64,000 nt of DNA, taken from contig NZ_CP014862.1 of the NCBI RefSeq assembly GCF_002214585.1, forward strand, positions 1,922,001 through 1,986,000, in the 5' to 3' direction. The stretch comes from Thermococcus profundus. GTDB lineage: Archaea > Methanobacteriota_B > Thermococci > Thermococcales > Thermococcaceae. Under the pieces are notes generated by a model. It saw only the letters and a program-made list of their open reading frames with translations, made no database searches and was not told the origin of the DNA. Below are positions 18,667-34,105 of this stretch, piece by piece. Within the stretch, counting starts at the first letter, position 1, and the number at the start of each line of letters is the position of its first letter. Position numbers and translations under genes: made by a program.

Positions 18667-18718
18667 GGGATGAGGAGAGCTGGAGTCTGATCAATGATGA
18701 GCGGTTAGGGCTTTCCGA
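18667..18718 (+). ncRNA. candidate C/D box guide sRNA (weak)
   Basis: Between the zinc-finger gene and the convergent membrane-protein gene the plus strand reads GGGATGA (C-like, 18667), 13 nt, CTGA (D', 18687), 3 nt, ATGATGA (perfect C', 18694), 14 nt, CCGA (D-like, 18715). The order and spacing resemble archaeal C/D guides, but the outer C and D boxes each have one mismatch and the spacers are slightly long. It would overlap the end of the gene at 18705. Confidence 0.3.
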
Positions 18719-20846
18719 CCGTTCCAGACTTCACAATTTTTATATCATCGCCGGGGCTGAAGCCGTTGTTGTCTCCCTCAAAAGCCCTCAAAAACGGCAG
18801 TACTTCTCCGTCCTTCTCGCGCCACTCTCCCACTACCCAGGAAGTCCTTTCCCACCTTCCCGGGTTCTGGAGGATATCTTTCGAGATGAACCATACACCG
18901 GCGGCAACGCCATCCATGGAGGGAGCACTTACTACCAGTGCACGGCTTCCGTTGACCTCAACAGCTTGAATCACAAAATACGAACGGGTAACATCCCCCC
19001 GCTTCATGCCCTCCTTCACCGCATAGTAGTACTTGAAAGTCGGCCCCACTATTATGGAGTAGTTAACCAGGATCGGGATCAGATACTCCCTCTCCAGAGA
19101 CGCTATACCCGGGTTCAGTGTTGAGTTTCCCAGAAGGAGGAGGGAGCTATTGGAAGAGACCCGTCTCCCTCTCCCCCTAGAAAGGAGAGAGTTGGCCCAT
19201 TCTTCGAGCCCCGCCGGTAGCGACCCAGGGACCACGCTCAAATTGTCGAAGTTCACGGAAAGAATGGGCACTTCAATGTATGGATACGGAGAGTGGCAGA
19301 GGGAACCGACGCAAGCGTCCGGGGGAATGAGCCCGATATCCCCCCCAGCCGGGCGGAGGTTCACACCATAAGCCCATCCAAGGAAGGAAATAGCAAGATC
19401 ATTCTCAGGAGGGGCCCCACTTTCAGCTTCATACACAAAACCCGGTCCGACTTGGGGAACAAGCTTGAGGTCATCCCCAGTCCAGTAGTATGGATAGCTG
19501 TAGATCGAGGGCGGTCTGGCGACGTTAGCAATGGTGGTGACAATTCCCAGCAACAACAGCACCGCAAATGCCTTCCTCCTCCAGCCGCGGGATACAATGG
19601 CCCGGTTTATCCTGCCTGCAACTAACGGAATAGAAAAAACAACTAGATACTGATATACCCTCACCATCCAGTTGGTAAAGCCAAAGCTTCCAAATCCACT
19701 GGGCATTACAGCAGAGACCGCGAGAGCGAGGAGTCCAAGGAAAGCCAGGAGGAGAACCAGCAACACCGGCTCTCCAAACCGTTCATTCCCTAGGGCTTCT
19801 ACGATACTCAGAATGAGAAGGACATTGAAAACCAAGTTCCCAAACTGCATTAGAAGCAGAAAGGCGAAGTTTTCGCGGTAGACCTCACCATAGGTAGTCC
19901 TACCCAGGTACACCTGAAGGACGATGGCCAGACTCATGATGATGATCCCCACGAGGACGTATAAGGAACCCCTCTTCCTGACTTCGGAGCGCACGAACGA
20001 GGAAATCCAATGGAAGATCCTCACCTTCCCTTCAAGAAGAAAGAGCAGGGGACCGGCGAGTATTAGAAGGAGGAAGCCCAGAAGGATGAAGGGAATGAAG
20101 TGCCACCCCACCATCCTGAGGGGGGACAGGCTCGAATGCTTGAGCATCCACTTCGCGGAGAAGAGGGTCATATCATACTGGGGCAGGAGCAGAACAATAA
20201 TCGGGGCTGAGGTAGAGGGAAGCATCAGAAGAAGGTAGGTCTTAATGTCCGCGCTCCTGAGGAGATCTAGAAGAGAGAGAAACCAGACCAGAGCCACAAC
20301 TATGACAAGGGAGAGAACGTGAGAAAGGGCCAGGATGATCCAGCCAACTGCCGTCATCACTAGGTACAAGTTCCGCCGAGCGGGGTTTTCCCTATCGTGG
20401 AAAATACCAGTGTAAAGAAGGAGAACCCAGAGACCAACCAAGAGCCCAATTCTCTGAGGCCTGACCTCGTTAGAAGACCAGAGGTAGTGACTGCTGAGAA
20501 GAAGGGCCAGGAAGAAGCCAACCACAGAACCTTTGTAGGTGCTGAACCTCCTGTGGAAGCCGAGGAGGAGAAACGGGTACAGGATAAAGAAAACGAACGA
20601 AGTCAGGAGAAGGGTCCAGACAGGATTTTGAAGTACTGAATTAAGAAGCCTCAAAAGGTAGGGGGTTAGAAGTCCAGAGTAGACGCCTCCAATTTTAACC
20701 GTTGAGATGTAGTACGCCTCGTCGAAGGTTGTGGTGATTCTCCCAAAGCTGAACCTTATGAAGAGCCAGATGAGAGCAAAGATGAGAGCAAAGATGAGAG
20801 CGAACAAAACTGAACGTATTTTATTGGAGGAGATCAAGAGCACCAC
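18705..20846 (-). CDS. GT-C-like membrane protein with surface-type C-terminal domain
   Basis: 713 residues. About 12 TM segments fill residues 10-430. The first external loop has FDEAYY (Asp42-Glu43), like the acidic pair of GT-C glycosyltransferases (PMT/ArnT type) that use lipid-linked sugars. From about residue 440 an external domain follows with several N-x-S/T sequons. Its last ~100 residues parallel those of the neighbouring 2109-residue protein: SYFVIQAVEV / GYWVIQKVVD, WVVGEW / YVVGYW, then DNNGFSPGDDI / DNNGFSPGDNI. The start may be GTG 20846 or TTG 20837 (GGTGGTG in front). A glycosyltransferase role is inferred from topology; substrate unknown. Confidence 0.6.
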   Translation of the reverse strand: MVLLISSNKIRSVLFALIFALIFALIWLFIRFSFGRITTTFDEAYYISTVKIGGVYSGLLTPYLLRLLNSVLQNPVWTLLLTSFVFFILYPFLLLGFHRRFSTYKGSVVGFFLALLLSSHYLWSSNEVRPQRIGLLVGLWVLLLYTGIFHDRENPARRNLYLVMTAVGWIILALSHVLSLVIVVALVWFLSLLDLLRSADIKTYLLLMLPSTSAPIIVLLLPQYDMTLFSAKWMLKHSSLSPLRMVGWHFIPFILLGFLLLILAGPLLFLLEGKVRIFHWISSFVRSEVRKRGSLYVLVGIIIMSLAIVLQVYLGRTTYGEVYRENFAFLLLMQFGNLVFNVLLILSIVEALGNERFGEPVLLVLLLAFLGLLALAVSAVMPSGFGSFGFTNWMVRVYQYLVVFSIPLVAGRINRAIVSRGWRRKAFAVLLLLGIVTTIANVARPPSIYSYPYYWTGDDLKLVPQVGPGFVYEAESGAPPENDLAISFLGWAYGVNLRPAGGDIGLIPPDACVGSLCHSPYPYIEVPILSVNFDNLSVVPGSLPAGLEEWANSLLSRGRGRRVSSNSSLLLLGNSTLNPGIASLEREYLIPILVNYSIIVGPTFKYYYAVKEGMKRGDVTRSYFVIQAVEVNGSRALVVSAPSMDGVAAGVWFISKDILQNPGRWERTSWVVGEWREKDGEVLPFLRAFEGDNNGFSPGDDIKIVKSGTVGKP
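20768..20801. repeat. 12-bp tandem repeat in first TM segment
   Basis: AGATGAGAGCAA is repeated 2.8 times in tandem, encoding the ALIF-ALIF-ALIW part of TM1 of the overlapping gene. A change in copy number would add or remove four hydrophobic residues in frame. Confidence 0.8.
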
Positions 20847-20896
20847 CGGCAGAATTCAATAAAATCAATAGAAAAGAAAAGTTTGGAGAGAGGGCA

Positions 20897-23800
20897 TCAG
20901 CCCTCTATTATTACTCCAATGTTGTCGCCTGGGCTGAAGCCGTTGTTGTCGTCGCTGGCAAACTGGAGGAACGCCGGGCTGTAGATGAGGCCGTCGGTCT
21001 CCTCCCAGTAGCCAACGACGTAGTTGCCGTGGAGCTCGCTGAAGTGCTGGCTGAAGTAGTAGGCGGCAGCCCAAGTGCTGTCGGCGTCGGTACCGTAGAT
21101 CATGTAGACCGTGGCGCCGGTGTCCGGGTCAACGACCTTCTGGATGACCCAGTAGCCCTTGCTGACGTTCCACCAGACCGCCGGAGCGGTCCAGTTGGCA
21201 ACGGTCTCGTTGTCGACGACGATGCTGATGGTGCCGTTCTCGGTGACCATCTTGACCGGAGCGATCTCCTGGTACTGGGCGGTTATGCTGTTGGCCTCAG
21301 GACCGCCGACCGCTATGATGACATCGCCACTCTCGATGCTGAGGGTGCTCGGAGTGTAGGTCGGCTTGACACCAACGAGGTCGAAGATGAACGACATTGC
21401 CTGGTAGTCGACTGAGGTGAGGGCGTTCTCACCAAGGACGATCTTAGCGTTGCCGGTCTGGACGTCGTGGACGAAGGCGGCGAGTCCCTGCGGGGCCTCG
21501 GTGTATCCGACGACTATGTTGGCCGGTGAGGTCTGGAACGGTGAGACTCCGACCTCCGCGAATCCAGCCGGGGTGTTGCCCATGAAGGCAACGACCCTGT
21601 AGACGCTGAGCGGCGGGAGGGCCGGTATACCGTCGATCTCGTAGTGGCCGTGGGCGTCGGTTGTAACGCTGAGCTCGTTGCCAGCGTAGTCAACGGCCGG
21701 GACCCACTCGGTTCCGTTGAAGGTGTAGACGACTACCTTGACTCCAGCGACCGGGTTGTTGTTCTCGTCCATGACGATACCAGCGACGCTACCGATTCCG
21801 CCGAACCTAACGGTCTCGACGTTGCTCATGATGCCGTCGTAGGTGGCGTAGACGTTGACGTCGCCCATGAGGGTGAGGAGTTCGTCCGGGGTCATGCCGG
21901 TCTTGGCAGCTGAGTAGACCTTGAAGGTGGCAATACCGTTCTCGTCGGTCGTGGCGTTGGTTGGCTCGACGTAGGCTATGTCGCTGTCGACGTTGAACTG
22001 GAGGAGCTTGTTGGCGAGCGGACCGTTGGCGGCGCTGATGTTGCCGGCCATGGCGTAAATCTCGTTGATGAGGTTCTCCTTCTCATCGTCGGTGAGGAAT
22101 GTCCAGGCCTGGATCTGCGGTACTATCTTCTCCTGGAACTGCTGGTCGAACTGGTCCTTGGCGTTCTCGACATAGAGGATGGCCTTGAAGTCGAAGTAGG
22201 ATCCCTCCTTGGCTGGCTGGATGTCCATGTCTGTGACGCGCTCGATCTCAAGGGTCGGGGTGAGCTGGATGATCTCGCTGAAGCCCTCGAGCGGAGTGAC
22301 CTGAGCTATCTCCTTGGTGACCTTAGTGTAGATGGCATTGCCCCAGACTGATGAGGCCTGCGGCTCGATCGGGATGGCACCCGGAGCCATGGGCGGCTTG
22401 TAGGTGTATGTGAAGGTCGTTATGTTTCCGTCGACGTTGACGGTTATGCTCCAGGTGGTCTGATCGATCTGCTCGACCTCCGGGGTGACGTTCTTGTAGA
22501 TCTTGGTGACGTTCCAGGTCTTAGCGAAGGTTGAGATGTCCTCGATGACCGGCACGTCCTTGGCGATCTCAAGCGGAACGGCTATGACGTAGAGCTTGAA
22601 CTCCTCGACCGGAGCGAGCGGGAAGACTGCTTCGGTGGTTCCGACGACCTGCTTGTGGTTGACGAAGTCGTAGGCCGGGACGTACGGGCCTTCCCTGTTG
22701 TTGAAGGCGACGTAGATGACGGTGGTCTCGTTCGGTGACTCAAGGCTGCCCTCCTTCTTGATGCTGGTGTAGACCCAAGCGAGCTTGCTCATGTCAGGCT
22801 CGGTGACCGGAAGCTCAAGCTCTGCGGTCTTGCCGTACTTGTCCTCGCCGGAGATGAAGTACTTTCCGATGTCCGGAGCGTAGAGCTGAATGTTGGTTGA
22901 GCCAACACCATTGGTCATCTCAACGGTGAAGCTGGTCTTGATCGGGTAGAGGTCGGTGTTGTTGAAGACGGCCTCACCGGTGAAGGTGTCGTCGATCTGG
23001 GCAGTGATTGACTCGTTCCTGTCAAGGACGGCCTTGACGGTGATGGTTATGGTCCTGAGCGTTGCGGCCGGGAAGCTGTCCGGGTCAGCACTCATGACGA
23101 GGTGCCAGCCCTCAACGGTGATGTCCTCAGTATCGGTGACGTTGTAGACGGCGTCATAGACGGTGATGGTGTAGTTTCCAGCCTCGAGAGTGACGTCGGC
23201 AGCGTAGACTCCGTCGCCGATGTAGGTCAGCTCGGTTCCGTCAAGGGTGACGGTGATGTTCTCGTAGTCGTTGGCACCGGAGTGGACGTAGACCTTGACC
23301 TCGGTTGGGATGCCTGCGTAGATCGTGGTGGGCTCAACCTTCACGATCTTGACGAGCTCGTCGACCGGGATCTTGACGGTCTTGGTGACGTTGTAGGCGC
23401 CGATGACCTGGACGACGGTCAGGGTGGCGTTTCCGGTCTGGTTGATGACTGTCTTGCCGAAGTCGATGGTTCCCTCACCGTTGACAACGTCGAAGGTTCC
23501 GGTGAAGTTCTGTCCGTCCGGAAGGACGAGGGTGACGTTAGCGGTTCCGGTGAACGGGACGGTGTCACCGTTCTCGTCAACATAGGTGAACGGGAAGACC
23601 AGGCTGTTCTCGAACTGCGGGTGGACGTAGAGCGGGTGAGTGTCAACCTCGATACCCCAGTCAAGGACGTCGACGGTGTAGGTCTCGTTGTACATGAGGT
23701 ACTTGTTGCCGAGGTCGCTGACGTAGTAGACAGTGACGGTGTAGTTGGTGTCCTCAGTTAGGACAACCTCCGGGAAGGACTCGGTGTAGAGCTCGCCGTT

Positions 23801-26800
23801 GACGTAGATCTCAAGGTCGTCCGGGCTGATGGCGGTGACGTTCGGGGTGGCCACGACGCTGAGGTTGACAGGGATGTACTTGTAGACCTTCTCCGGCTCG
23901 AAGGTGACGTCGACCTTCCACGGCTTGACGTTGACGGTGGCAACGCCAGCGATGGTCGGGTCGGTGAGGTCCTTGACCTCAACTGTTATCGGGCCGGTGG
24001 CGTCGAGCTTAATGCCGGTTATCGTGGCGTGGCCGTTGTTGTTGTGCATCGGGACTATCTGGCTGTAGGCGATCTCGCCGCCGACGTAGACGGTCACGTT
24101 GACCATGCTGTCGGCGTCGATCGGGTAGATGACGTTGCCGCTAACGCCCATGTACTGGAGGTCAATCGTGTAGGTGCCGGTCTGGTACTGGTAGATCTCG
24201 TCAGGGGTGACCTTGACGTCGATGTACTTCTTGTTGTACTCGATGTTCGGGAAGACCGGGATGTACTGGACGGTCTTAACGAGGCCGTCGCTACCAACGT
24301 CGCTGACGGTTATCTTGGCGACACCAGGAACGGTTATGTCCTCACCCGGTATCTCGAAGTAGACGTCGAAGTCCTTCCTGTAGTCGCCGGTGGCCAGCTT
24401 CCAGAACTTCTGGCCGTTCGGAAGCTCGATGGTGACGTTGTAGGTCCTGTACCTAAGCCTGCTGTCGTCCGGGTAGACGCCGATGTTAACGCCGATGATG
24501 GCATCCTGGCCGACGGTGAGGCTGTCAGGCGTGGGCTCGGCTGAGACGTACCACTTCTTAACCGGGAACTTCTCAACGCCGGCGTAGGTGAACGGGCTGA
24601 TGTTGAGAGTATCGTCCCAGTAGGTTATGCTCCAGTCAACGGTGACGTAGCCGGTCTCGTTGAACTGGAGGTCCTCGAGGATCTCGTTAAACATGTCATT
24701 GAAGTCCGGACCGTCAGAGCAGACGTCCTCGTAGGTGAATGTCTCGTTGATCCACTTGTCGTAGTTCGGACCGGTGACGTGGACGCTGAGGTTGGCGTTG
24801 ACCGGGAACGGGAAGGAGTCCTCGCCGAAGACGTGGAGGTCGTCCATCACTCCGATGTAGAAGACGTTGTAGTGAACATAGGCATCAACGTTCGGCCAGT
24901 CCTGGACGAAAATGGCGTGCTTGTCGTAGCCGCTTATTGTGGTGTTGTAGGTGCTGCCGTTGGCGAAGATGAGCATGGTCCACTCAGCCTTTACATAGCC
25001 GCTCTTGTTGAACTGCATGAAGTCGCTGACGTTGAGGTGGACGTAGGAGATCGAACCGCTGGTAAGACCGCCGTTGGTGGTGTTCACATAGTACTCGAAC
25101 GGGCCGTAAACTGTTCCATCCGGGCCGGTGAAGGTGACGTTGACGTAGGCCTCGTCGATCGGGAAGTCAACCTCAATGTCGTAGGTGAGGTTGGCCGGGA
25201 TGTGGTCAACGAACTGACCTGAGTTGATGTGAGTGCAGTGGGCGAGGTTGTTTCCGAGGTTGTAGACGGTGTGAGCACCGAAGTCGCTCTCAATCGGGGC
25301 GACGTAGATGTAGAAGATGTCGCTCCTTCCGTAGACGGTGTCGGTGATGGTAACCTTGACTTTTCCTTCGGCATTGAACTTGATGAGCTCGGATATGGCG
25401 TAGAGGTCAAGAACGTCCGTAACGTTGAGGAGGTAGCTCTTGGTGAAGCCCGGACCGCTGACGGTGACGTTGAGCTGGGTCTGCGGGACGAACGGGAGGT
25501 CCCCTGAAAGGTAGGTAACGTTCTTGTAACCAATAACACAGCCGCAGTCATCGTAAATGGGCACTGTGGTCACTACGGCCTTCTCAAAGTTCACCCAGAA
25601 CGTGAAGTTAGCCGGTATGTCGACGTAGAAGTGGTTGGTCGCCGGAGGCTTACCGAAGGTGTAGATGTAATAATAGTCGTGCCAGGCGTTGATGCCCCAG
25701 TCGTAGACGTTGATCTTCTTGTCGCCCCACTTGGCATAGTTGTTGTCCTTAACGACGACCCTTATCTTCTTGGTGGCGTCGTGAGCAACGAAGCTGACGT
25801 TGGTGAGGTTGACGAAGATCTGACCCTGGCCGTTAACGACCGGAACCGAGTTGTTAACCCATATGAGGTCGTCACCGTAGTAGACCTCAACGGTTGCGGT
25901 GCTGTTTATAAGAACGAGGTGACCTGGGAGGGTCGAGTTGGTGTAGTTGAACTTGACGAGCATGGTTGCTGGGATGTCCTTGTAGAATCCGTAGCCATAG
26001 TCACTTGAGGTGAGGGTGTTCGAGGTGTTGTCGTAGATGTATATGTCAGCGTCAACGTTGATCTGCCAGTCGTAGACGTTTATGGTAACGGTCCTGCTGA
26101 CGCCGTAGTCTGGCAGGCTGAATGTGACCACGAGCGGGTCGGCGGAGACGTTGTAGATCGTGGTGGTGTTGGTACCGTCGGTAAGGTTGAATGTGCCGCT
26201 CATCGGGGTCGCTTCGGATGCTCCCTCGAGCTGGAAGGTTCCAGTTGCATCGAGACCGAGTTTACCGAGGGAGCTGTTTGAGGTTATAGTGAAGGTCACG
26301 TTGAACGGGGCAAACTTAACGACCGCGGTGTTTCCGAGGGAGTTGTCCCAGCTTCCGCTTATAGCGGAGGTAACGTTGAGCCACCAGTTGTGAACCTCAA
26401 CAACCTTTCCAGTCTCGTTGAGCGGTATGGTGTAGGTAAGGCCGTGCTTGGTGTCCTCGAGGACGAGGGTCAGGTAGCTTATGTTTGTGCTCTTAACGTT
26501 CGTGAAGTTAATGAAGTAGTCGTTCGGAGAAACGGCGAGTGTGGTGTTAACTACACCAGTGGCTATCTTGTCTGAACCAGCGTAGAGGTATGCCTTGAGC
26601 TCGGTCTCGTTCGGGAGGAGTGAGCCGTAGCCAGCCACGAGGGTGTCGTTGAAGTCAACCTGCAGGGTGAGGTTGAACGGTATGTTCTTGAATGCGGCGT
26701 TGTTCTGCCAGGCGGATCCGTCCCAGTAGGGGACGCTGCTGACGATGTTGATGTCGTTGTAGTCCTCAACCGGGCTCTCCTTAACGGGGATGTGCTTGGT

Positions 26801-27226
26801 GGTCTCGTAAGCGACTGAGATCTCTCCACCAATTATTGCGATAACCTGAGCCGAAACTATGACCTCGGAGGCGTTCTTCGGGATCTCAGGGAGGGTGAGG
26901 TTAACAACCTCCCAGAGGTCGTCACCGAGGTTGATAAGGCCGCTCTGGGTCTTAAGGACGAGCTGACCTGACTCGTTGTAGTAAACAAGAACCTGGAAGT
27001 TGTAGTTGTAGTCACCGCTGACATTCACTGAGAGGTTCGCTGGATACCCCACGAAGGGGTTTGAAACCTGGTTGCTGCCAAATGCTCCCAGGTAAAAGTC
27101 AGTGCTCTCAATCTGAATTTGAGGCGCTGCGTTCACTGGCTTAAAGAACGTCCCTGGAAGCACTGAAGCCACCATTAAAAATACCAACAACAAACTAAAG
27201 GTCTGCGCTTTCCTGCGCTTATTCAT
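20897..27226 (-). CDS. giant secreted surface protein with repeated beta domains and S-layer-like C-terminus
   Basis: 2109 residues. A signal peptide covers about residues 1-33 (basic start, hydrophobic core, cleavage near VNA-APQ). Most of the length is repeated Ig-like beta units of about 80-110 residues, many beginning with the pattern W-x-[IV]-[NDS]-[VA] and rich in N-x-S/T. A carboxypeptidase-regulatory-like unit lies near 1805-1885 (GSVAGIVMDENNNPVAGV). The end (VGGPEANSITA ... TDADSTWAAAYYF ... DDNNGFSPGDN) resembles C-terminal domains of archaeal S-layer proteins and the end of the adjacent membrane protein. Few cysteines. Very even codon bias suggests high expression. No TM anchor is visible, so attachment may rely on the C-terminal domain. 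Confidence 0.85.
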   Translation of the reverse strand: MNKRRKAQTFSLLLVFLMVASVLPGTFFKPVNAAPQIQIESTDFYLGAFGSNQVSNPFVGYPANLSVNVSGDYNYNFQVLVYYNESGQLVLKTQSGLINLGDDLWEVVNLTLPEIPKNASEVIVSAQVIAIIGGEISVAYETTKHIPVKESPVEDYNDINIVSSVPYWDGSAWQNNAAFKNIPFNLTLQVDFNDTLVAGYGSLLPNETELKAYLYAGSDKIATGVVNTTLAVSPNDYFINFTNVKSTNISYLTLVLEDTKHGLTYTIPLNETGKVVEVHNWWLNVTSAISGSWDNSLGNTAVVKFAPFNVTFTITSNSSLGKLGLDATGTFQLEGASEATPMSGTFNLTDGTNTTTIYNVSADPLVVTFSLPDYGVSRTVTINVYDWQINVDADIYIYDNTSNTLTSSDYGYGFYKDIPATMLVKFNYTNSTLPGHLVLINSTATVEVYYGDDLIWVNNSVPVVNGQGQIFVNLTNVSFVAHDATKKIRVVVKDNNYAKWGDKKINVYDWGINAWHDYYYIYTFGKPPATNHFYVDIPANFTFWVNFEKAVVTTVPIYDDCGCVIGYKNVTYLSGDLPFVPQTQLNVTVSGPGFTKSYLLNVTDVLDLYAISELIKFNAEGKVKVTITDTVYGRSDIFYIYVAPIESDFGAHTVYNLGNNLAHCTHINSGQFVDHIPANLTYDIEVDFPIDEAYVNVTFTGPDGTVYGPFEYYVNTTNGGLTSGSISYVHLNVSDFMQFNKSGYVKAEWTMLIFANGSTYNTTISGYDKHAIFVQDWPNVDAYVHYNVFYIGVMDDLHVFGEDSFPFPVNANLSVHVTGPNYDKWINETFTYEDVCSDGPDFNDMFNEILEDLQFNETGYVTVDWSITYWDDTLNISPFTYAGVEKFPVKKWYVSAEPTPDSLTVGQDAIIGVNIGVYPDDSRLRYRTYNVTIELPNGQKFWKLATGDYRKDFDVYFEIPGEDITVPGVAKITVSDVGSDGLVKTVQYIPVFPNIEYNKKYIDVKVTPDEIYQYQTGTYTIDLQYMGVSGNVIYPIDADSMVNVTVYVGGEIAYSQIVPMHNNNGHATITGIKLDATGPITVEVKDLTDPTIAGVATVNVKPWKVDVTFEPEKVYKYIPVNLSVVATPNVTAISPDDLEIYVNGELYTESFPEVVLTEDTNYTVTVYYVSDLGNKYLMYNETYTVDVLDWGIEVDTHPLYVHPQFENSLVFPFTYVDENGDTVPFTGTANVTLVLPDGQNFTGTFDVVNGEGTIDFGKTVINQTGNATLTVVQVIGAYNVTKTVKIPVDELVKIVKVEPTTIYAGIPTEVKVYVHSGANDYENITVTLDGTELTYIGDGVYAADVTLEAGNYTITVYDAVYNVTDTEDITVEGWHLVMSADPDSFPAATLRTITITVKAVLDRNESITAQIDDTFTGEAVFNNTDLYPIKTSFTVEMTNGVGSTNIQLYAPDIGKYFISGEDKYGKTAELELPVTEPDMSKLAWVYTSIKKEGSLESPNETTVIYVAFNNREGPYVPAYDFVNHKQVVGTTEAVFPLAPVEEFKLYVIAVPLEIAKDVPVIEDISTFAKTWNVTKIYKNVTPEVEQIDQTTWSITVNVDGNITTFTYTYKPPMAPGAIPIEPQASSVWGNAIYTKVTKEIAQVTPLEGFSEIIQLTPTLEIERVTDMDIQPAKEGSYFDFKAILYVENAKDQFDQQFQEKIVPQIQAWTFLTDDEKENLINEIYAMAGNISAANGPLANKLLQFNVDSDIAYVEPTNATTDENGIATFKVYSAAKTGMTPDELLTLMGDVNVYATYDGIMSNVETVRFGGIGSVAGIVMDENNNPVAGVKVVVYTFNGTEWVPAVDYAGNELSVTTDAHGHYEIDGIPALPPLSVYRVVAFMGNTPAGFAEVGVSPFQTSPANIVVGYTEAPQGLAAFVHDVQTGNAKIVLGENALTSVDYQAMSFIFDLVGVKPTYTPSTLSIESGDVIIAVGGPEANSITAQYQEIAPVKMVTENGTISIVVDNETVANWTAPAVWWNVSKGYWVIQKVVDPDTGATVYMIYGTDADSTWAAAYYFSQHFSELHGNYVVGYWEETDGLIYSPAFLQFASDDNNGFSPGDNIGVIIEG

Positions 27227-27391: not shown

Positions 27392-28528
27392 TCAAAATTT
27401 TTCCAAAAGATTAGGGTCTTGAAGAAGCCTGGCCCACTTAGACCCACAGGACAGCCTTTTTAGTATGCCGTCTTTAATACTCCTCCTAAAAACCTTTTTT
27501 AAGGCTTTCGGATCAGAAAGTAGCTCGTCTAACATCGAGGAGAGTTCCGCTTTTTGTCGTAGGGTTATGAGGCCCTTTCCATCCTCCAACCCTAGAGTGG
27601 TGAAGTTGGGGGCAATGGCGGATGAAACCACCGGAACGGCATCAAAAATCAGCCCCTCAACCACGACCAACCCGAAGGACTCGAAGGAAGACGGAAGGAC
27701 AAGGATCGTGGCTTTTCCATAGATCGCGGCAAGCTCCTTTGGATCCGCCACCTGACCAAAGAAGCGAACCCTCCCCGAGATCCCAAGCCTTTCCGAGAGA
27801 GAGCGGTAGTGATCAAGCAGGTCGCCTCCGCCGACGACCCAGAGCTCCCAATCAGGATGTCTCGGGGAGACCTCGGAAAAGGCCCTCAAAAGAAGGTCGA
27901 AGTTCTTGAAGCTGTGGTATCTGGAAAGCTGGCCGACAAAAAGAATGACCTTCTCTTTTCCCATAGGATTATCCAATTTAACGAGTTTAGATTTAGGTCT
28001 GGGGAGGACCACGGTAGAGCGGAATCCCTTCTGCTGAAGGGAATCTCTAACTGCAGGCGAGACGGACACTATCCGTTTTGCCCGGGAGAGGACGAATCTC
28101 TCAAGGGTCCTCGAGTACAGAGAAGCCAGGACATCGGTTGCAGAACCCTTCTTTAGTCCAACCGTGTGATAAACAATGAGGAGGGGAACGCCAAAGAGGA
28201 GGGAAGCCAGAGCGCCGGCATCCGCAGCAGAAGGAACCGGCGTGTGGGCTATTATCAGGTCCGGATTCCACGACTTCACAGTTGAGATTACCCTGAGAAC
28301 GAACCTCAAGCTCAGGGGTGTGTTGGAGATGACAAAACCAGCTTTGACCCTTTCCACGGGAAGAACAGAGTCCCCAACGCGGACTCTCTCGCGGGAGGAT
28401 CTCCTTCTGCTCATGCAGATGATCCGGACCTCGTGCTCCTTCGAAAGATCCTCCGCCATTGCCGAAGCATAGCTTTCGAGGCCGCCGCCCTCGGGTGGAA
28501 AGTAGGGAGCCAGCAGGAGGATCCTCAA
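27392..28528 (-). CDS. glycosyltransferase family 4
   Basis: 378 residues with the GT-B layout: N-terminal LLAPYFPPEGGGLESY with the G-G loop for acceptor or nucleotide sugar, and C-terminal VILFVGQLSRYHSFKNFDLLL, VVGGGD, and the retaining E-x7-E motif in SSFESFGLVVVEG. It would add a sugar to a lipid-linked glycan on the cytoplasmic face. The start is TTG 28528, two bases after the stop of the upstream GT2 gene whose tail supplies GGAGGG; no ATG or GTG gives a sensible N-terminus. The pair forms one operon. Donor and acceptor unknown. Confidence 0.85.
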   Translation of the reverse strand: MRILLLAPYFPPEGGGLESYASAMAEDLSKEHEVRIICMSRRRSSRERVRVGDSVLPVERVKAGFVISNTPLSLRFVLRVISTVKSWNPDLIIAHTPVPSAADAGALASLLFGVPLLIVYHTVGLKKGSATDVLASLYSRTLERFVLSRAKRIVSVSPAVRDSLQQKGFRSTVVLPRPKSKLVKLDNPMGKEKVILFVGQLSRYHSFKNFDLLLRAFSEVSPRHPDWELWVVGGGDLLDHYRSLSERLGISGRVRFFGQVADPKELAAIYGKATILVLPSSFESFGLVVVEGLIFDAVPVVSSAIAPNFTTLGLEDGKGLITLRQKAELSSMLDELLSDPKALKKVFRRSIKDGILKRLSCGSKWARLLQDPNLLEKF

Positions 28529-28530
28529 CC

Positions 28531-29640
28531 TCAGCCCTCCTTGAGCATGTAGACGCTTATGAAGAACGAGAAGAAGATAACCTGAAGTCCTAGGGTTATG
28601 AGTGTAAGGATGAGCACTGCCTCCCTTATGTGGAAGAGCGCGCCGTAGCCGGTCGCCCTCCACTGGAGGAAGAGCTTAAGCCCCAAGGCGAGGCCGATGA
28701 GGAACATCAGACCCCCAAGGAGAAGGCCCTCCTCAAGGATGGAGTAGCGCATGAAGAAGCGAGTTATCCTATCGGGCCTTTCAAAGCCCTCTTTGACGGC
28801 GTAGACCTTCGCAGAGACCCCAAAGCCGAGAATCTGGGTTCCAGAGATTACCAGAAGGGAGCCCAAGATGAGGGTGTGGAGCCTTATCGGCTCAAAGAAG
28901 TAGGTGTAGCCCATGAGAAACAGACCCAGCAGAAGGAGGAAAAGGCCCGGAAGGAAGAAGAGGTACGTTGGGGAGTAGAGGAGCATGAGGCGGAGGTGCC
29001 TCCAGCCGTCCCTAAAAGAGCTCAGCTTTGATTCACCGATCCTGCGGTGGTACCTTATCGGCACCTCCTTTATCCTGAGCCCGTGCTTCGCCGCTTCGAT
29101 CACCATCTCGCTGGCGAATTCCATGCCCCTGCATTTGAGGGGCAACTTTTCAAGGGCGTCCCTTCTTATCGCCCTCATGCCGCAGTGGGCATCGGAGATG
29201 CCGGCTTTGAAGAAGAAGTTGAGGATCCACGTGAGAAGGGGGTTGCCGATCTTCCTGTGAAGCCACGGCATCGCCCCCTCGTCCATCTCACCCTTCAGAC
29301 GGTTGCCCATGACGAGATCGGCTTCATCCTTCAGCAGGGGTTCGAGGAGCGCAGGTATGTCCTCTGGATCGTAGCTCCCATCGGGATCCATCATGAGGAT
29401 GAACCTTCCCCTAGCGGCCCTAAAACCCTCAAGGTACGCATCGCCGTAGCCTCTGCCCCTCTGCCTTATAACAACCGCCCCGAGCTCCCTGGCGATCTGG
29501 GGAGTTTTATCGGTGCTCCTGTCAACGACTATAATCTCATACCTAAGGCCGGTTCTATCGAGCACCGCTTTTATCCGGGGCAGAACAGTTTGTATGGCCT
29601 CCTCCTCGTTCATCGTCGGCAGAACCACTGACACGTCCAT
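28531..29640 (-). CDS. GT2 glycosyltransferase, dolichyl-phosphate sugar synthase type
   Basis: 369 residues. The N-terminal ~230 residues are a GT-A domain with VVLPTMNEEEAI, IIVVDRSTDKT, the DPDGSYDPEDIP metal motif and a YHRRIGESKL segment typical of DPM/AglK-like enzymes. Four TM segments follow. Family members charge dolichyl phosphate with mannose or glucose, supplying external GT-C enzymes. That fits the GT-C-like protein and AglB nearby. ATG 29640 follows GGTG; the GTG nine bases upstream is less likely. Sugar not predictable. Confidence 0.85.
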   Translation of the reverse strand: MDVSVVLPTMNEEEAIQTVLPRIKAVLDRTGLRYEIIVVDRSTDKTPQIARELGAVVIRQRGRGYGDAYLEGFRAARGRFILMMDPDGSYDPEDIPALLEPLLKDEADLVMGNRLKGEMDEGAMPWLHRKIGNPLLTWILNFFFKAGISDAHCGMRAIRRDALEKLPLKCRGMEFASEMVIEAAKHGLRIKEVPIRYHRRIGESKLSSFRDGWRHLRLMLLYSPTYLFFLPGLFLLLLGLFLMGYTYFFEPIRLHTLILGSLLVISGTQILGFGVSAKVYAVKEGFERPDRITRFFMRYSILEEGLLLGGLMFLIGLALGLKLFLQWRATGYGALFHIREAVLILTLITLGLQVIFFSFFISVYMLKEG

Positions 29641-29688
29641 GGGCCGCACCGGTGAAAATAGAAAAAGAGGCTTTTAGATTTAACGGAG

Positions 29689-30492
29689 CTACCCGAGCCC
29701 GGACTTCATCTGCTTCAGCATGTCTATGGCCTGGTCTATCATCGAGTCCAGTCCAAGATCGCTCGCTGTAAGGTTAACCGTGAACTCCATGTCTATGGGA
29801 ACCTCAAGCTCCTCGTTTATGGGCACCTGGATGACGTCATCGAAGGGAACGTCAACCACTGTATCCACTGGAACGCTTAGGGTGTCCCTGAACGGGACGT
29901 CAACGGTGGTGTCGATGGGAACCTCAACTGTGGTGTCGAGGGTGGTGGTGACGGGCACGGTGGTCTTGATGTGCGTCTTCACAGTAGTGTTTATGGGGAC
30001 GTCAACCCACTTATCTATAGGAACCGTGACGTTGAGGGTGAGGTTCTTTTCGGCGTTGTAGGCTGTGGTGTTGACGGTCTGTACTATGTGGACGCGGGTC
30101 ACGGTGTTTATCGGCACGTCAACGACTTGATCAATGGGAACGTTGAAGCTGACCTCCTGGCTTATCGGAACGTCAACGGTGTCGGTAAGGTTCACCTTAA
30201 ACGTCTTGTCCACGGAGACCTCGACCGTCTTGTTGATGTGCACTTGGAACACCTTGGAAACGTGAACGTCCACCGTCGTGTTGATGGGAACTTTGACAGT
30301 CTTGTGAACCGGAACCTTGACCTCAAAGGTCTTCCCCTTCATGTCCTCCAGGGAACTTATGGCGTCGTCAACGGCAGAGGATGCTTTTCCCTTGAGCTTC
30401 ATTGCGAACATAACCGCCCCCAGATCCACGACGAGGAGCAGGATCACAAGAACAGTTAAGATGCTGAGCCACACCTTGGTTCCTTTTTCCAT
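29689..30492 (-). CDS. membrane-anchored octapeptide-repeat beta protein
   Basis: 267 residues. One N-terminal TM segment (about 8-30) with a short basic cytoplasmic start acts as an uncleaved anchor. After a helical linker (about 32-47) residues 50-245 form about 20 units with an 8-residue period, consensus V-P-[IVF]-[ND]-x-[TVE]-V-x, for example VPINTTVD and VPIDTTVD. The regular alternation suggests a long beta structure outside the membrane. A short helix (MIDQAIDMLKQMKSGL) closes it. Several N-x-S/T sites lie in the repeats. ATG 30492 follows GGGGGATGG. It diverges from aglB. The family is not one I can name; a spacer, stalk or scaffold role is a guess. Confidence 0.8.
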   Translation of the reverse strand: MEKGTKVWLSILTVLVILLLVVDLGAVMFAMKLKGKASSAVDDAISSLEDMKGKTFEVKVPVHKTVKVPINTTVDVHVSKVFQVHINKTVEVSVDKTFKVNLTDTVDVPISQEVSFNVPIDQVVDVPINTVTRVHIVQTVNTTAYNAEKNLTLNVTVPIDKWVDVPINTTVKTHIKTTVPVTTTLDTTVEVPIDTTVDVPFRDTLSVPVDTVVDVPFDDVIQVPINEELEVPIDMEFTVNLTASDLGLDSMIDQAIDMLKQMKSGLG

Positions 30493-30536
30493 GATCCATC
30501 CCCCACGCTTAAACAATAAGGGATGAGGATGCCAAA

Positions 30537-30565
30537 GTATAAATCGTTTACCCTTAATATTTATA
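30537..30565. promoter_or_regulatory. divergent promoters, repeat protein and second aglB
   Basis: In a 104-bp gap, TTTATACT on the minus strand (30537-30544) faces the repeat-protein gene 45 bp away, and AATATTTATA on the plus strand (30556-30565) faces aglB 31 bp away. Spacing fits archaeal TATA boxes. Confidence 0.5.
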
Positions 30566-30596
30566 GGGATGAGGTTAACTCGAATGGGTGGCACAG

Positions 30597-32945
30597 ATGG
30601 GCAGAAAAAAGAAAAAGACCGATGCCGGGGATACCCCAAAAAGGATGATCAAATCACCGCAATTTCCCGGATGGAGCAAGAGGCTTATCCCGTTCCTGAT
30701 ATTCCTCATGGCACTCACAATAAGGCTCATACCCTACAGACTCAAATACCTCGTCGGCTACGACCCATACTTTCACCTCGCGTACCTTGAGTACGCCTCC
30801 CAGCACGGGTGGGTCAACTACTTTCCCTACGCCCTCGGCCCGTGGGGCTTTCTGATAAACCACTTCCACCCAAAGGGAATGTGGCTGACACCCTACTCGA
30901 TCTACAGGATTGGGAATCCCTTCGGCCTCTCAATCGAAGGAGCTTTCAAACTGACGCCCCCCATATTAGGAGCCCTAACTGTGCTGCTCGTCTATTACAT
31001 GATGAAAAAACTGTACTCGTGGAAGGAGGCATCCCTCTCAGCTCTCATCCTGGCGCTCTCATTTGGTCACGTCTTCCGCTCCATGTCAAGTTACTACAGG
31101 GGAGATAACTACGCGCTCTTCTGGTACTCGGCAACCCTGGTTTTGATGGGCTACGGATTGAATGAGAAAGAAGATAGAAGAAAGGTCTTCATCTACCTGA
31201 CGGCGGGACTGGTGGCAGGGTTCTCAAGTGCCTTCTGGAGCGCCTACTACGTGGTTCTCGCGCTACCCCTCTTGGTTTCAATAGCACTGGCCGCATATTC
31301 CCTCTTCCGCGGGGGCTACTTTGGGGATTCCACGCTCACCGCGGCATCGACCGCCGTCGGTGCACTGATGGCTTCAGCGCTGGGACACGTCTTCGGCTTC
31401 GGAATGTTCTGGATCCAGAACTGGCAGGGGGAACAGCTGAGATCCATAACCGGCCTGAGCCCGGGCCCCTTAGAGGACGTCTACCTAACACTTCACCTGC
31501 TCGTTCTCGTGCCCCTAACTCTGGCCCTCACGGCTTCTCTCTGGGCGGTCAGGTCCAGGCTTCCGGAGGGAACGCGCAGAACTGGCACCATAGGGGTTGT
31601 TGCCCTGGTCACAGTCATCTTCGTGGCGATTCTCTGGAAATACGGTGGAACGATGGAGATACTCTCCGCAGGATTAAGCTCCTTCGGAAGCGCAGCCACG
31701 GCGGAGATGTCCAGACCCGGCTGGTGGGACATCAAGATGGCCTACCATGCGTTTCTGGCGTTTCTCCCCTTCTACCTCCTCTCCTTCAGGCACTTCCGCG
31801 TCCGCGATGCGTTCATCCTGGGAGTTTCAGCTCCACTAATAGCACTGGCGTTCTACTGGACGCGATTCCTGTTCATAGGGTCCCTCGGAGTGTCGCTGGC
31901 GGCTGGAATCGGGGCGAGTGAGCTCGTTGAGTTAACAGGAAGATGGAACATGAAAAAGGCAGGGGTCGCTCTCATCATAGTCCTGGTAATCTTGGGCGGC
32001 TACCATGGGGTTAAGGCAGCGGCCGATGTCAAGCCAATAGTTGATGAAAACTGGGCCAGCGCGCTGATCTATCTTAAGGGGATCTCGAACGAGAACGACA
32101 TCGTCTTAACTTGGTGGGATCACGGCCACTGGGTCACCTACTTCGCTCACAGGGCGGCGGTGGCTCAGGGGACACCTAGCAAGCTGGTATCGAGATTCTA
32201 CCTCGGGAATGCCTCCAGGGAGGAGCTGCTCGAACTGGGGGTTGACTACGTTACTGTTTCCTTTGACACGATCCTCAAATGGGGCTCCGTCAAATCGACG
32301 GCGGGGTACACGGGAAGCGAATACGTTCTGATACCCCTGTTCCCCAGCGGGGTTTACGGGGATGCCGTGATCTTCGCCAATGGGCCGTATCAGGTGGGCG
32401 TGAGGAAGGCAGAAAACGGGACATGGAGCGTTCTTGTAAACGTGAAGGGCAACACTTTTATCCCCGAAGAGGTCTGGATAGAGAGCGGGGACAAACCTTT
32501 CCGGGCCAACGTAACCGGAAAGAAGGCCGGAAACGCGTACCTGTACGTTAATCTCAAGTACGGCTACGCGGTTCTAATGGACGGCAGGACGTTTTCAACG
32601 CCCTTTGCTAGGCTCATGTTCACCTCAGAGTACTCCAAGGAGTACAGGCTTGTCTATTCAGACGGGGGAAGGGTGAAGATATTCCAGCTCCTCCACCCCA
32701 ACGTTGTCCTCGACAGGTCCAACGGACTCGTTCTGCGCTTCACAAACGCGACCGGAGACAGACTGAGAATATACGGCTACACTGACTCGGGGAAGAGAGT
32801 ATTCTACCGGGAGTACAACGTCTCAGGCCTCAGCGAGTTCCGGGTTCCAGAGACAGTACCCGGGGACGTCATAAGGTACACCTACCTAAAGGGGAGCATC
32901 ATACTCGACAGGGGTGTCTTCAGGAGGTCTGGCGGGTGGAGCTGA
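30597..32945 (+). CDS. aglB: AglB/STT3-type oligosaccharyltransferase, second copy
   Basis: 782 residues, same architecture as the copy at 3096: lysine-rich start, GYDPYFHLAYLE in loop 1, RSMSSYYRGDNYALFWYS, 12-13 TM segments, then a globular domain with WWDHGHWVTYF (WWDxG at 506-510) and DGGRVKIF. The two copies align along their length and end alike (DRGVFRR / DRGIFRR). It transfers lipid-linked glycan to Asn of secreted proteins. The fourth signature residue is His rather than Tyr. ATG 30597 follows GGGTGG. The stop overlaps the flippase start by 10 bp, so assembly of glycan transfer and flipping is one operon. Confidence 0.9.
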   Translation: MGRKKKKTDAGDTPKRMIKSPQFPGWSKRLIPFLIFLMALTIRLIPYRLKYLVGYDPYFHLAYLEYASQHGWVNYFPYALGPWGFLINHFHPKGMWLTPYSIYRIGNPFGLSIEGAFKLTPPILGALTVLLVYYMMKKLYSWKEASLSALILALSFGHVFRSMSSYYRGDNYALFWYSATLVLMGYGLNEKEDRRKVFIYLTAGLVAGFSSAFWSAYYVVLALPLLVSIALAAYSLFRGGYFGDSTLTAASTAVGALMASALGHVFGFGMFWIQNWQGEQLRSITGLSPGPLEDVYLTLHLLVLVPLTLALTASLWAVRSRLPEGTRRTGTIGVVALVTVIFVAILWKYGGTMEILSAGLSSFGSAATAEMSRPGWWDIKMAYHAFLAFLPFYLLSFRHFRVRDAFILGVSAPLIALAFYWTRFLFIGSLGVSLAAGIGASELVELTGRWNMKKAGVALIIVLVILGGYHGVKAAADVKPIVDENWASALIYLKGISNENDIVLTWWDHGHWVTYFAHRAAVAQGTPSKLVSRFYLGNASREELLELGVDYVTVSFDTILKWGSVKSTAGYTGSEYVLIPLFPSGVYGDAVIFANGPYQVGVRKAENGTWSVLVNVKGNTFIPEEVWIESGDKPFRANVTGKKAGNAYLYVNLKYGYAVLMDGRTFSTPFARLMFTSEYSKEYRLVYSDGGRVKIFQLLHPNVVLDRSNGLVLRFTNATGDRLRIYGYTDSGKRVFYREYNVSGLSEFRVPETVPGDVIRYTYLKGSIILDRGVFRRSGGWS

Positions 32946-34105
32946 GGGACCTCGCCCGGCCCACTCTCCACCTAACCACCGCGACCCTGATAAGCGCGAT
33001 AACGGGCTTGATATTCTGGTGGGCTGCCTCAAGGTTCTACTCGGCTGGGGATATTGGAACAGCCTCAGCGGTGATATCCTTCCTGAACCTGGCCTTCGCA
33101 GTCTCGACCCTCGGCCTCAACGTTGGCCTCATCCGCTTTTACGGCGAGTTCAACGGAAGAGGAGCCGGGACGACATTAATCATAATGACCGCGCTTTCGC
33201 TCGTCCTAACAGGGGTCTACGGGATTCTGAACCCCGGCAAAGCCCTGGGGAGAGAACCGAGCTTTTTTGGGCTCCTGCTGGCAACTGCAGCAGCAGGGGC
33301 ACTTTACAACGTTCTAGGATACCTCTCAGTGGCATCGGGAAAAACGAGAACTTACGTTGAGATGAGCTTAGCTTACGGACTGAGGGTTATTCCGGTTCCG
33401 CTGATGAGATCCCTAGGGGCTCCCGGCCTTTTGGGATCCTTCGGGTTCGGGCTTGTACTTGGACTCTCCCACGGATGGAGAAAGCTCAGGAGCCACATCG
33501 TCCCGTGTCTTGATAGGGAATTCCTCAGGGCAAGCTTCGGGGTCTCCCTGAGCAACTACATCGGGAACATCGTCAACCTCCTCCCCGTTTACCTCATGCC
33601 AACAATAATCCTGGTCGAGCTTGGAAGGGAGTGGACCGGATACTACTACGTCGGATTCACCCTTGGGAACATCATCCTGGTGCCCATCACCGCCCTTAGC
33701 ACGATTCTCCTCCGGGAGGAGAGAACAGGTCAAAAGTTCAGAGAGGCCCTTCTGCTGATTCTGATTTACTGGGGCGCCTCGGTGGTGGGAATATGGCTCT
33801 TTGGGAACTACGCCCTCCTGCTCTTTGGAGAGGGATACACCAGGGCCATGGACATGCTTAAAGCGGTGGCACTGGGAATAGGGCCCGCAGGGGTCACCTA
33901 CGTTGGGCTGGCAAAGCTCACCGTGGAAAAGAAACCGGTTTATATCTCCATTCTCAACGTCCTCCGCGGTGGGCTCTTCCTCCTTATCGGATACCTTCTC
34001 CTGGGGAGGTACGGCATAGCAGGGGTTGGAATGGGATGGAGCCTCGCCCACACCGCAACTGGCCTTGGGATTGTTGTGCTCTGGAAAAAGCCGAAAAGTT
34101 TTTAA
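32936..34105 (+). CDS. polysaccharide/lipid-linked oligosaccharide flippase, Wzx/MATE-like
   Basis: 389 residues, 11-12 TM segments, with the MOP-superfamily start pattern (TATLISAITGLIFWWAASRFYSAGDIGTAS cut here to its sense: first TM followed by a short basic/acidic loop) and GLNVGLIRFYGEF in the second. Such proteins flip lipid-linked sugars across the membrane. It starts at GTG 32936 inside the end of aglB, with GGAGGT eight bases ahead. Immediately after its stop come two tRNA genes whose TATA box overlaps the stop codon. Slightly shorter than typical flippases (about 400-480). Function inferred from family plus the aglB partner. Confidence 0.82.
   Translation: MELRDLARPTLHLTTATLISAITGLIFWWAASRFYSAGDIGTASAVISFLNLAFAVSTLGLNVGLIRFYGEFNGRGAGTTLIIMTALSLVLTGVYGILNPGKALGREPSFFGLLLATAAAGALYNVLGYLSVASGKTRTYVEMSLAYGLRVIPVPLMRSLGAPGLLGSFGFGLVLGLSHGWRKLRSHIVPCLDREFLRASFGVSLSNYIGNIVNLLPVYLMPTIILVELGREWTGYYYVGFTLGNIILVPITALSTILLREERTGQKFREALLLILIYWGASVVGIWLFGNYALLLFGEGYTRAMDMLKAVALGIGPAGVTYVGLAKLTVEKKPVYISILNVLRGGLFLLIGYLLLGRYGIAGVGMGWSLAHTATGLGIVVLWKKPKSF

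Follow-up and report, generated by a model that had tools for sequence, protein, structure and literature searches.

Why do a membrane protein with the look of a glycosyltransferase and the giant secreted surface protein encoded beside it end in the same domain, and what might this domain do? Little is known yet about the way in which archaea attach secreted proteins to their surface, or about the contact between an S-layer anchor and the membrane. The question was raised by a sequence-only reading of the window, by which we mean the whole 64,000-nucleotide stretch of Thermococcus profundus DNA analyzed here, and it concerns the following features:

18705..20846, minus strand: GT-C-like membrane protein with a C-terminal anchor-type domain (open reading frame, 713 aa, GTG start)
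20897..27226, minus strand: giant secreted surface protein, 2109 aa, 67 N-glycosylation sequons (open reading frame and sequon count)
18705..19238, minus strand: shared anchor-type domain of the GT-C-like protein, residues ~537-713 plus stop (profile match, hhalign)
20897..21418, minus strand: shared anchor-type domain of the giant, residues ~1937-2109 plus stop (profile match; S_layer_C 0.0009; model matching PDB 9FSA)
18747..18773, minus strand: loop D-N-N-G-F-S-P-G-D of the GT-C-like protein, residues 692-700, candidate metal loop (invariant residues)
20924..20953, minus strand: loop D-D-N-N-G-F-S-P-G-D of the giant, residues 2092-2101, candidate metal loop (conserved in the alignment)

Both open reading frames and all motifs quoted from them in that reading were found as given, and its claim that the last residues of the two products run parallel was borne out. 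Pairwise blastp aligned residues 618-708 of the GT-C-like protein with residues 2020-2109 of the giant over 95 columns (33% identity, E=3e-9), and the local score was 122, compared with a mean of 34.3 and a maximum of no more than 61 in 1000 shuffles. Comparison of the domain in the GT-C and surface families gave a probability of 99.95 and E=1e-37 (hhalign), against 0.35 for the reversed control; all reversed-alignment controls of this kind stayed at or below 1.5%. Chance similarity of the two C-termini is ruled out by the shuffles and the hhalign controls, and the two domains are homologous. The extent of ~100 residues proposed earlier was too short, as the profiles of both families placed the domain at residues 537-708 of the GT-C-like protein and 1937-2109 of the giant, i.e., about 150-175 residues. 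Within the loop of the GT-C-like protein, D692, N694, G695, F696, S697 and D700 were invariant in 19 proteins, and the D, G, F and last D of the loop were invariant in the alignments of both families. The conserved pattern is D-x-N-G-F-S-x-x-D, and it did not match the spacing of EF-hands or dockerins (D-x-D/N-x-D-G, acidic at position 12); the calcium loop suspected in the sequence-only reading would therefore have to be of a different type.

With regard to the nature of the domain, S_layer_C (PF05124) was the sole family matching more than a couple of its members, namely 17 of 22 surface domains (best 1.8e-8) and 3 of 19 GT-C proteins. The curated cut-off of this family is 23.9 bits; the giant of the window remained under it (14.5-19.4 bits, E 0.0009), as did most relatives, some exceeded it (e.g., 29.2 bits for the L103 protein), and the GT-C protein of the window gave no match to S_layer_C. 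Compared by hhalign with the C-terminal part of the canonical Thermococcales S-layer protein, the surface domain reached 91.4% (E=9e-7) and the GT-C domain 70% (E=4e-5). An AlphaFold model of the giant's domain (pLDDT 74) matched 9FSA in Foldseek (E=0.041, probability 0.97, TM 0.58 by target length) at rank 42, below BcsB and glycosidase N-domain folds, and the same BcsB and GH67 PDB entries were retrieved separately by this model and by the C-terminal part of the GT-C model. 9FSA is from the Methanococcus voltae S-layer anchor and is described as the domain by which this anchor dimerises, and dimeric anchors have also been predicted for the S-layers of Thermococcus and Pyrococcus (PMC11410804). 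The canonical S-layer protein of the same genome carries the S_layer_C anchor in two halves, spanning residues 47 to 619, whereas the domain in the giant is contiguous (1937-2109) and not split around lattice domains; a profile of the S-layer anchor extended by its N-terminal half gave no better match. Thus, given the S_layer_C matches, the profile matches and the fold match to 9FSA, it is well supported that the domain is distantly related to the dimerising archaeal S-layer anchor, of which it represents a contiguous form placed at the C-terminus.

A separate observation concerns the canonical S-layer genes themselves. In all 31 loci examined (L104 9358-11920, which is C1 ~1877857-1880419 of the same genome, and L136-L165), the S-layer gene product had no C-terminal membrane helix, and within ~50 bases (with one overlap) the next gene encoded a protein of 194-279 aa with an N-terminal membrane helix. 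This small protein may be the membrane partner of the S-layer. By eye its end resembles the anchor domain; homology was not established by comparison with the domain (best E 0.004, 24 columns).

The strongest functional evidence for the domain came from its replacement of membrane anchors on other proteins. In related genomes, the domain was also found at the end of a solute-binding protein of ABC type (SBP_bac_5), of a papain-family protease that contains a PEGA domain, of a beta-helix protein and of Ig-like proteins. All complete solute-binding homologues without the domain that were examined ended in a stalk, usually Thr-rich, followed by a membrane helix, whereas those with the domain had neither; the homologue of the same genome (window 53491-56010) is of the stalk and membrane helix type, without the domain. 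Likewise, all five complete homologues of the papain-family protease lacking the domain ended in a membrane helix and the carriers did not. Since the domain replaces a membrane anchor in two unrelated families, it appears to work as an anchor module, first of all for anchoring or docking, and the conclusion that it holds secreted proteins at the cell surface is well supported. That it is private to the GT-C/giant pair is ruled out by the solute-binding, protease and beta-helix carriers.

Two further features were recognized in the giant:

27128..27226, minus strand: signal-peptide-like N-terminus, residues ~1-33, MNKRRKAQTFSLLLVFLMVASVLPGTFFKPVNA (sequence inspection)
21512..21790, minus strand: carboxypeptidase-regulatory-like domain, residues 1813-1905 (PF13620, E=2.3e-6, below the curated cut-off)

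No C-terminal membrane helix was present in the giant. Its 67 sequons were about three times the number expected (21.9 +/- 4.0 in shuffles), and an excess of two- to four-fold was seen in the surface partners encoded beside a GT-C gene. On the other hand, the solute-binding carriers (6-13 vs 6-7.5 expected) and the S-layer protein of the same genome (6 vs 4.9 expected) showed little or no excess. Judging from this distribution of sequons, the giant is a likely main target of N-glycosylation. Such enrichment points to AglB and not directly to the GT-C enzyme. It is unlikely that the giant is the main S-layer protein, because the genome encodes a canonical 623-aa S-layer protein elsewhere. Two peculiarities of its relatives were also observed. 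The tandem giants of L044 (1420-7512 and 7613-12463) are identical in their last ~70 residues but differ elsewhere in the domain, a pattern suggestive of gene conversion at its end. The surface proteins of L047, L048, L050, L052 and L053 (836-861 aa) carry, unlike all other carriers, a tail of ~32 residues after the domain with a conserved PSCxC-type end.

The sequence-only reading had also taken the first protein to be an enzyme-like membrane protein, and our analysis agreed: a simple hydropathy scan gave ~11 hydrophobic segments, forming a membrane-spanning N-terminal part, followed by a C-terminal part of 270 residues. An acidic motif in the first outer loop, which is a trait of GT-C glycosyltransferases, was present:

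20709..20726, minus strand: FDEAYY motif, residues 41-46, candidate catalytic D42/E43, directly after the first membrane helix (by invariance)

D42, E43, Y45 and Y46 of this FDE(A/S)YY motif were invariant in 19 of 19 GT-C-like proteins, as were other polar residues, at identities down to 25%. A low-confidence model of the protein (pLDDT 61) had GT-C enzymes as all seven of its best PDB matches (E 0.005-0.06), with AglB, ALG12, ArnT and Pmt4 among the fold matches. None of the Pfam GT-C families (PMT, PMT_2, STT3 and others) matched the 19 members at E values up to 1, neither Pfam nor NCBIfam offers a name for the protein, and a PDB sequence-profile search with the GT-C family returned nothing significant, only a chance receptor (0.15) and 9FSA (2.5). 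All five sequons of the GT-C-like protein fall within residues 535-632, a placement that fits a C-terminus outside the cell. It is probable, if not proven, from the modeled fold and the conserved motif that the protein is a GT-C transferase with an extracellular domain.

To what extent do the two genes belong together? The search covered 94 Thermococcales genomes and 21 other genomes of the phylum. The GT-C protein was full-length in 19 of the 94 and cut by contig ends in two more (G061 and G085), and domain-bearing surface proteins occurred in the same 21 genomes and in G029, G034 and G036. The co-occurrence thus looked for across the order was found, with both genes in 21 genomes, the surface protein only in 3, the GT-C only in none and neither in 70 (Fisher p=4e-18, uncorrected for relatedness). 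Neither the domain nor the GT-C was found in the 21 non-Thermococcales genomes. Moreover, all 19 full-length GT-C genes had a gene for a domain-bearing surface protein upstream of them in the same orientation. The sequence-only reading had named, as speaking against it, a domain present on unrelated proteins together with a lack of linkage between these two genes; the domain does occur on unrelated proteins, but the genes are linked. A widespread domain without linkage is ruled out by the co-occurrence and by the absence from the 21 other genomes. As G034 and G036 have domain-bearing surface proteins with no GT-C found, the GT-C is not strictly required. The G029 cassette (L055, L187) is eroded, consisting of AglB and domain fragments where its close relative G026 has an intact one; the protease carrier of G029 contains three in-frame stops and its other domain copies are fragments, which fits a loss of the carriers together with the cassette.

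Two arrangements of the pair were distinguished. In clade A (the window and seven relatives; GT-C proteins 41-51% identical), a giant of 1945-2933 aa is followed directly by the GT-C gene. In clade B (GT-C ~26% identical), the surface protein encoded upstream has 836-2030 aa, and in 10 of 11 loci a ~240-aa DUF1616-like protein is encoded immediately before the GT-C (PF07760 matched weakly by 9 of 11 members, best 0.0014); at L061, the DUF1616-like gene precedes a GT-C fragment. GT2, GT4 and AglB-like genes lie nearby in both clades, and a flippase-like gene in some loci. In a tree of 50 domain copies, one branch separated the 19 GT-C copies from the 31 surface copies (95/87, 97% of bootstraps). 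Although long branches meet in this tree, the two-sided branch suggests that the copies separated once, early on, and were inherited together thereafter. In clade A, the eight GT-Cs paired with the eight giants, and five GT-Cs of two genera with an 840-aa partner grouped together (98/94), which suggests that in the latter group the pair was transferred between genera as a unit. Distances among GT-Cs and among their surface partners were correlated (Mantel rho 0.49, p=0.0002), with species relatedness contributing. In addition, a 5 kb contig of a Thermotogaceae MAG (L059) encodes a domain-bearing GT-C along with a DUF1616-like protein and a flippase-like one of Thermococcales type; either the contig was misbinned or these genes were transferred to bacteria.

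The neighbors of the pair in the window are the following:

27392..28663, minus strand: GT4-type glycosyltransferase (PF00534 1.7e-24; also in the loci of relatives)
28531..29649, minus strand: GT2-type glycosyltransferase, AglJ-like (PF00535 1.7e-32; TIGR04182 4e-58, below cut-off)
29689..30639, minus strand: repetitive VP(I/F)xTTV protein, one membrane helix at its N-terminus, restricted to clade A loci (cluster of 7)
30588..32945, plus strand: AglB/STT3-like oligosaccharyltransferase paralogue with a WWDHG motif (PF02516 6.1e-9; TIGR04154 1.9e-12, below cut-off)
32936..34105, plus strand: polytopic membrane protein, flippase-like by family (clusters with L047:3259-4530, Polysacc_synt 1.8e-5)

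The last of these had no Pfam match itself, and the repetitive protein contains 8 sequons vs 2.0 expected. Another AglB/STT3-like paralogue is encoded at 3096-5420 (plus strand) of the window and shares 40% identity with that next to the pair. Because members of the AglB family occur widely (in 72 of 94 Thermococcales genomes), the GT-C/surface pair appears to be an optional addition to N-glycosylation loci.

We propose that the surface-protein and glycosyltransferase genes form a linked cassette based on an S-layer-type anchor, whose domains pair, dock and put the coat beside the enzyme, and we give this explanation about an even chance of being correct. Pairing of the anchor copy on the enzyme with the copy on the secreted protein would be the most economical reading: the domain of the GT-C protein would bind that of its secreted partner and thereby dock the coat protein on the membrane, next to the GT-C active site. 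The giant would be N-glycosylated by the AglB paralogue of the cassette, and the GT-C enzyme might add a further sugar to the giant or its glycan, drawing on a polyprenyl-phosphate sugar supplied with the help of the neighboring GT2 and GT4 genes. The earlier suggestion of a dedicated coat assembly or glycosylation system is favored in part by the shared domain, the gene pairing, the GT-C appearance and the N-glycosylation locus, but not in its exclusiveness, as the domain is not private to the pair. A broader version, i.e., a surface sorting system in which secreted proteins as unrelated as the coat, a nutrient-binding protein and a protease carry the S-layer-derived tag at their C-terminus and the domain-bearing GT-C is the receptor that recognizes, holds and glycosylates them, is tentative and seems to us possible rather than probable.

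The chief rival to domain pairing is that all carriers, the GT-C protein included, dock into the ordinary S-layer via its canonical anchor, with no direct contact between giant and GT-C. The relationship of the domain to the S-layer anchor, the presence of canonical S-layer proteins (~620 aa) in 91 of 94 Thermococcales genomes and the two genomes having carriers with no GT-C found are in its favor. However, canonical S-layers are near universal while carriers occur almost only where the GT-C does, and the surface domain resembles that of the GT-C (1e-37) much more closely than it does the S-layer anchor (9e-7), and we consider docking of this kind rather unlikely, though it deserves to be taken seriously.

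Two other readings deny that the domains bring an active enzyme to its substrate. The GT-C-like protein might be a mere membrane stalk for the coat, its transferase fold being a relic and no longer an enzyme; the surface partner indeed has no membrane anchor of its own, and since the canonical S-layer gene is followed in every locus examined by one whose product has an N-terminal membrane helix, a coat gene beside a membrane-partner gene may be a general plan. We regard this as improbable in view of the invariance of the first-loop D-E motif and polar residues in the 19 diverged proteins and the position of the pair among sugar-transfer genes. Similarly doubtful is that the shared domain records only an old gene fusion, with the pair being an optional glycosylation island whose domains do not interact. 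While the patchy occurrence of the pair, in N-glycosylation loci that also exist without it, would agree with this, the GT-C has retained the domain in 19 of 19 cases despite deep divergence and with the same invariant residues as the surface proteins, and elsewhere the domain serves as an anchor substitute.

It looks like an S-layer anchor domain, here used outside S-layer proteins, was adopted as an anchoring module and joined to a probable glycosyltransferase, which is apparently undescribed: in the open-access literature searched, no paper on PF05124 or the GT-C/surface pairing was found, in keeping with the earlier remark that no description of the pairing was known. One domain on an enzyme, a coat and nutrient-binding proteins would provide a testable surface-display module for hyperthermophiles and might connect the anchoring of proteins with their glycosylation. 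Given the genetic tools for Thermococcus, a tractable carrier strain would allow this idea to be put to the test.

Compared with known systems, the domain shares with S_layer_C and 9FSA the GGPxxN motif, a probably related fold and occurrence in secreted surface proteins without other anchors, but it is contiguous and C-terminal, has the additional D-x-N-G-F-S-x-x-D end, and sits on an enzyme, a solute-binding protein and a protease. Like the GT-C enzymes AglB/STT3, PMT, ArnT and ALG12, the GT-C-like protein has a multi-helix membrane part, an acidic first-outer-loop motif and a C-terminal outer domain; it differs in matching no Pfam GT-C family and in its S-layer-anchor-type outer domain, which to our knowledge does not occur in those families. 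In bacterial type IX secretion, one C-terminal domain (CTD) tags unrelated secreted proteins, and the processing enzyme PorU bears the same kind of domain. This is an analogy and not a claim of homology, since phylum, fold and chemistry differ from those of the archaeal cassette. Finally, the S-layer of Sulfolobales, with its coat protein SlaA and membrane anchor SlaB, likewise combines an anchorless coat protein with a separate membrane partner. The likeness lies in this two-part plan, whereas in the cassette a putative polytopic enzyme takes the place of the membrane partner and shares its domain with the coat protein.
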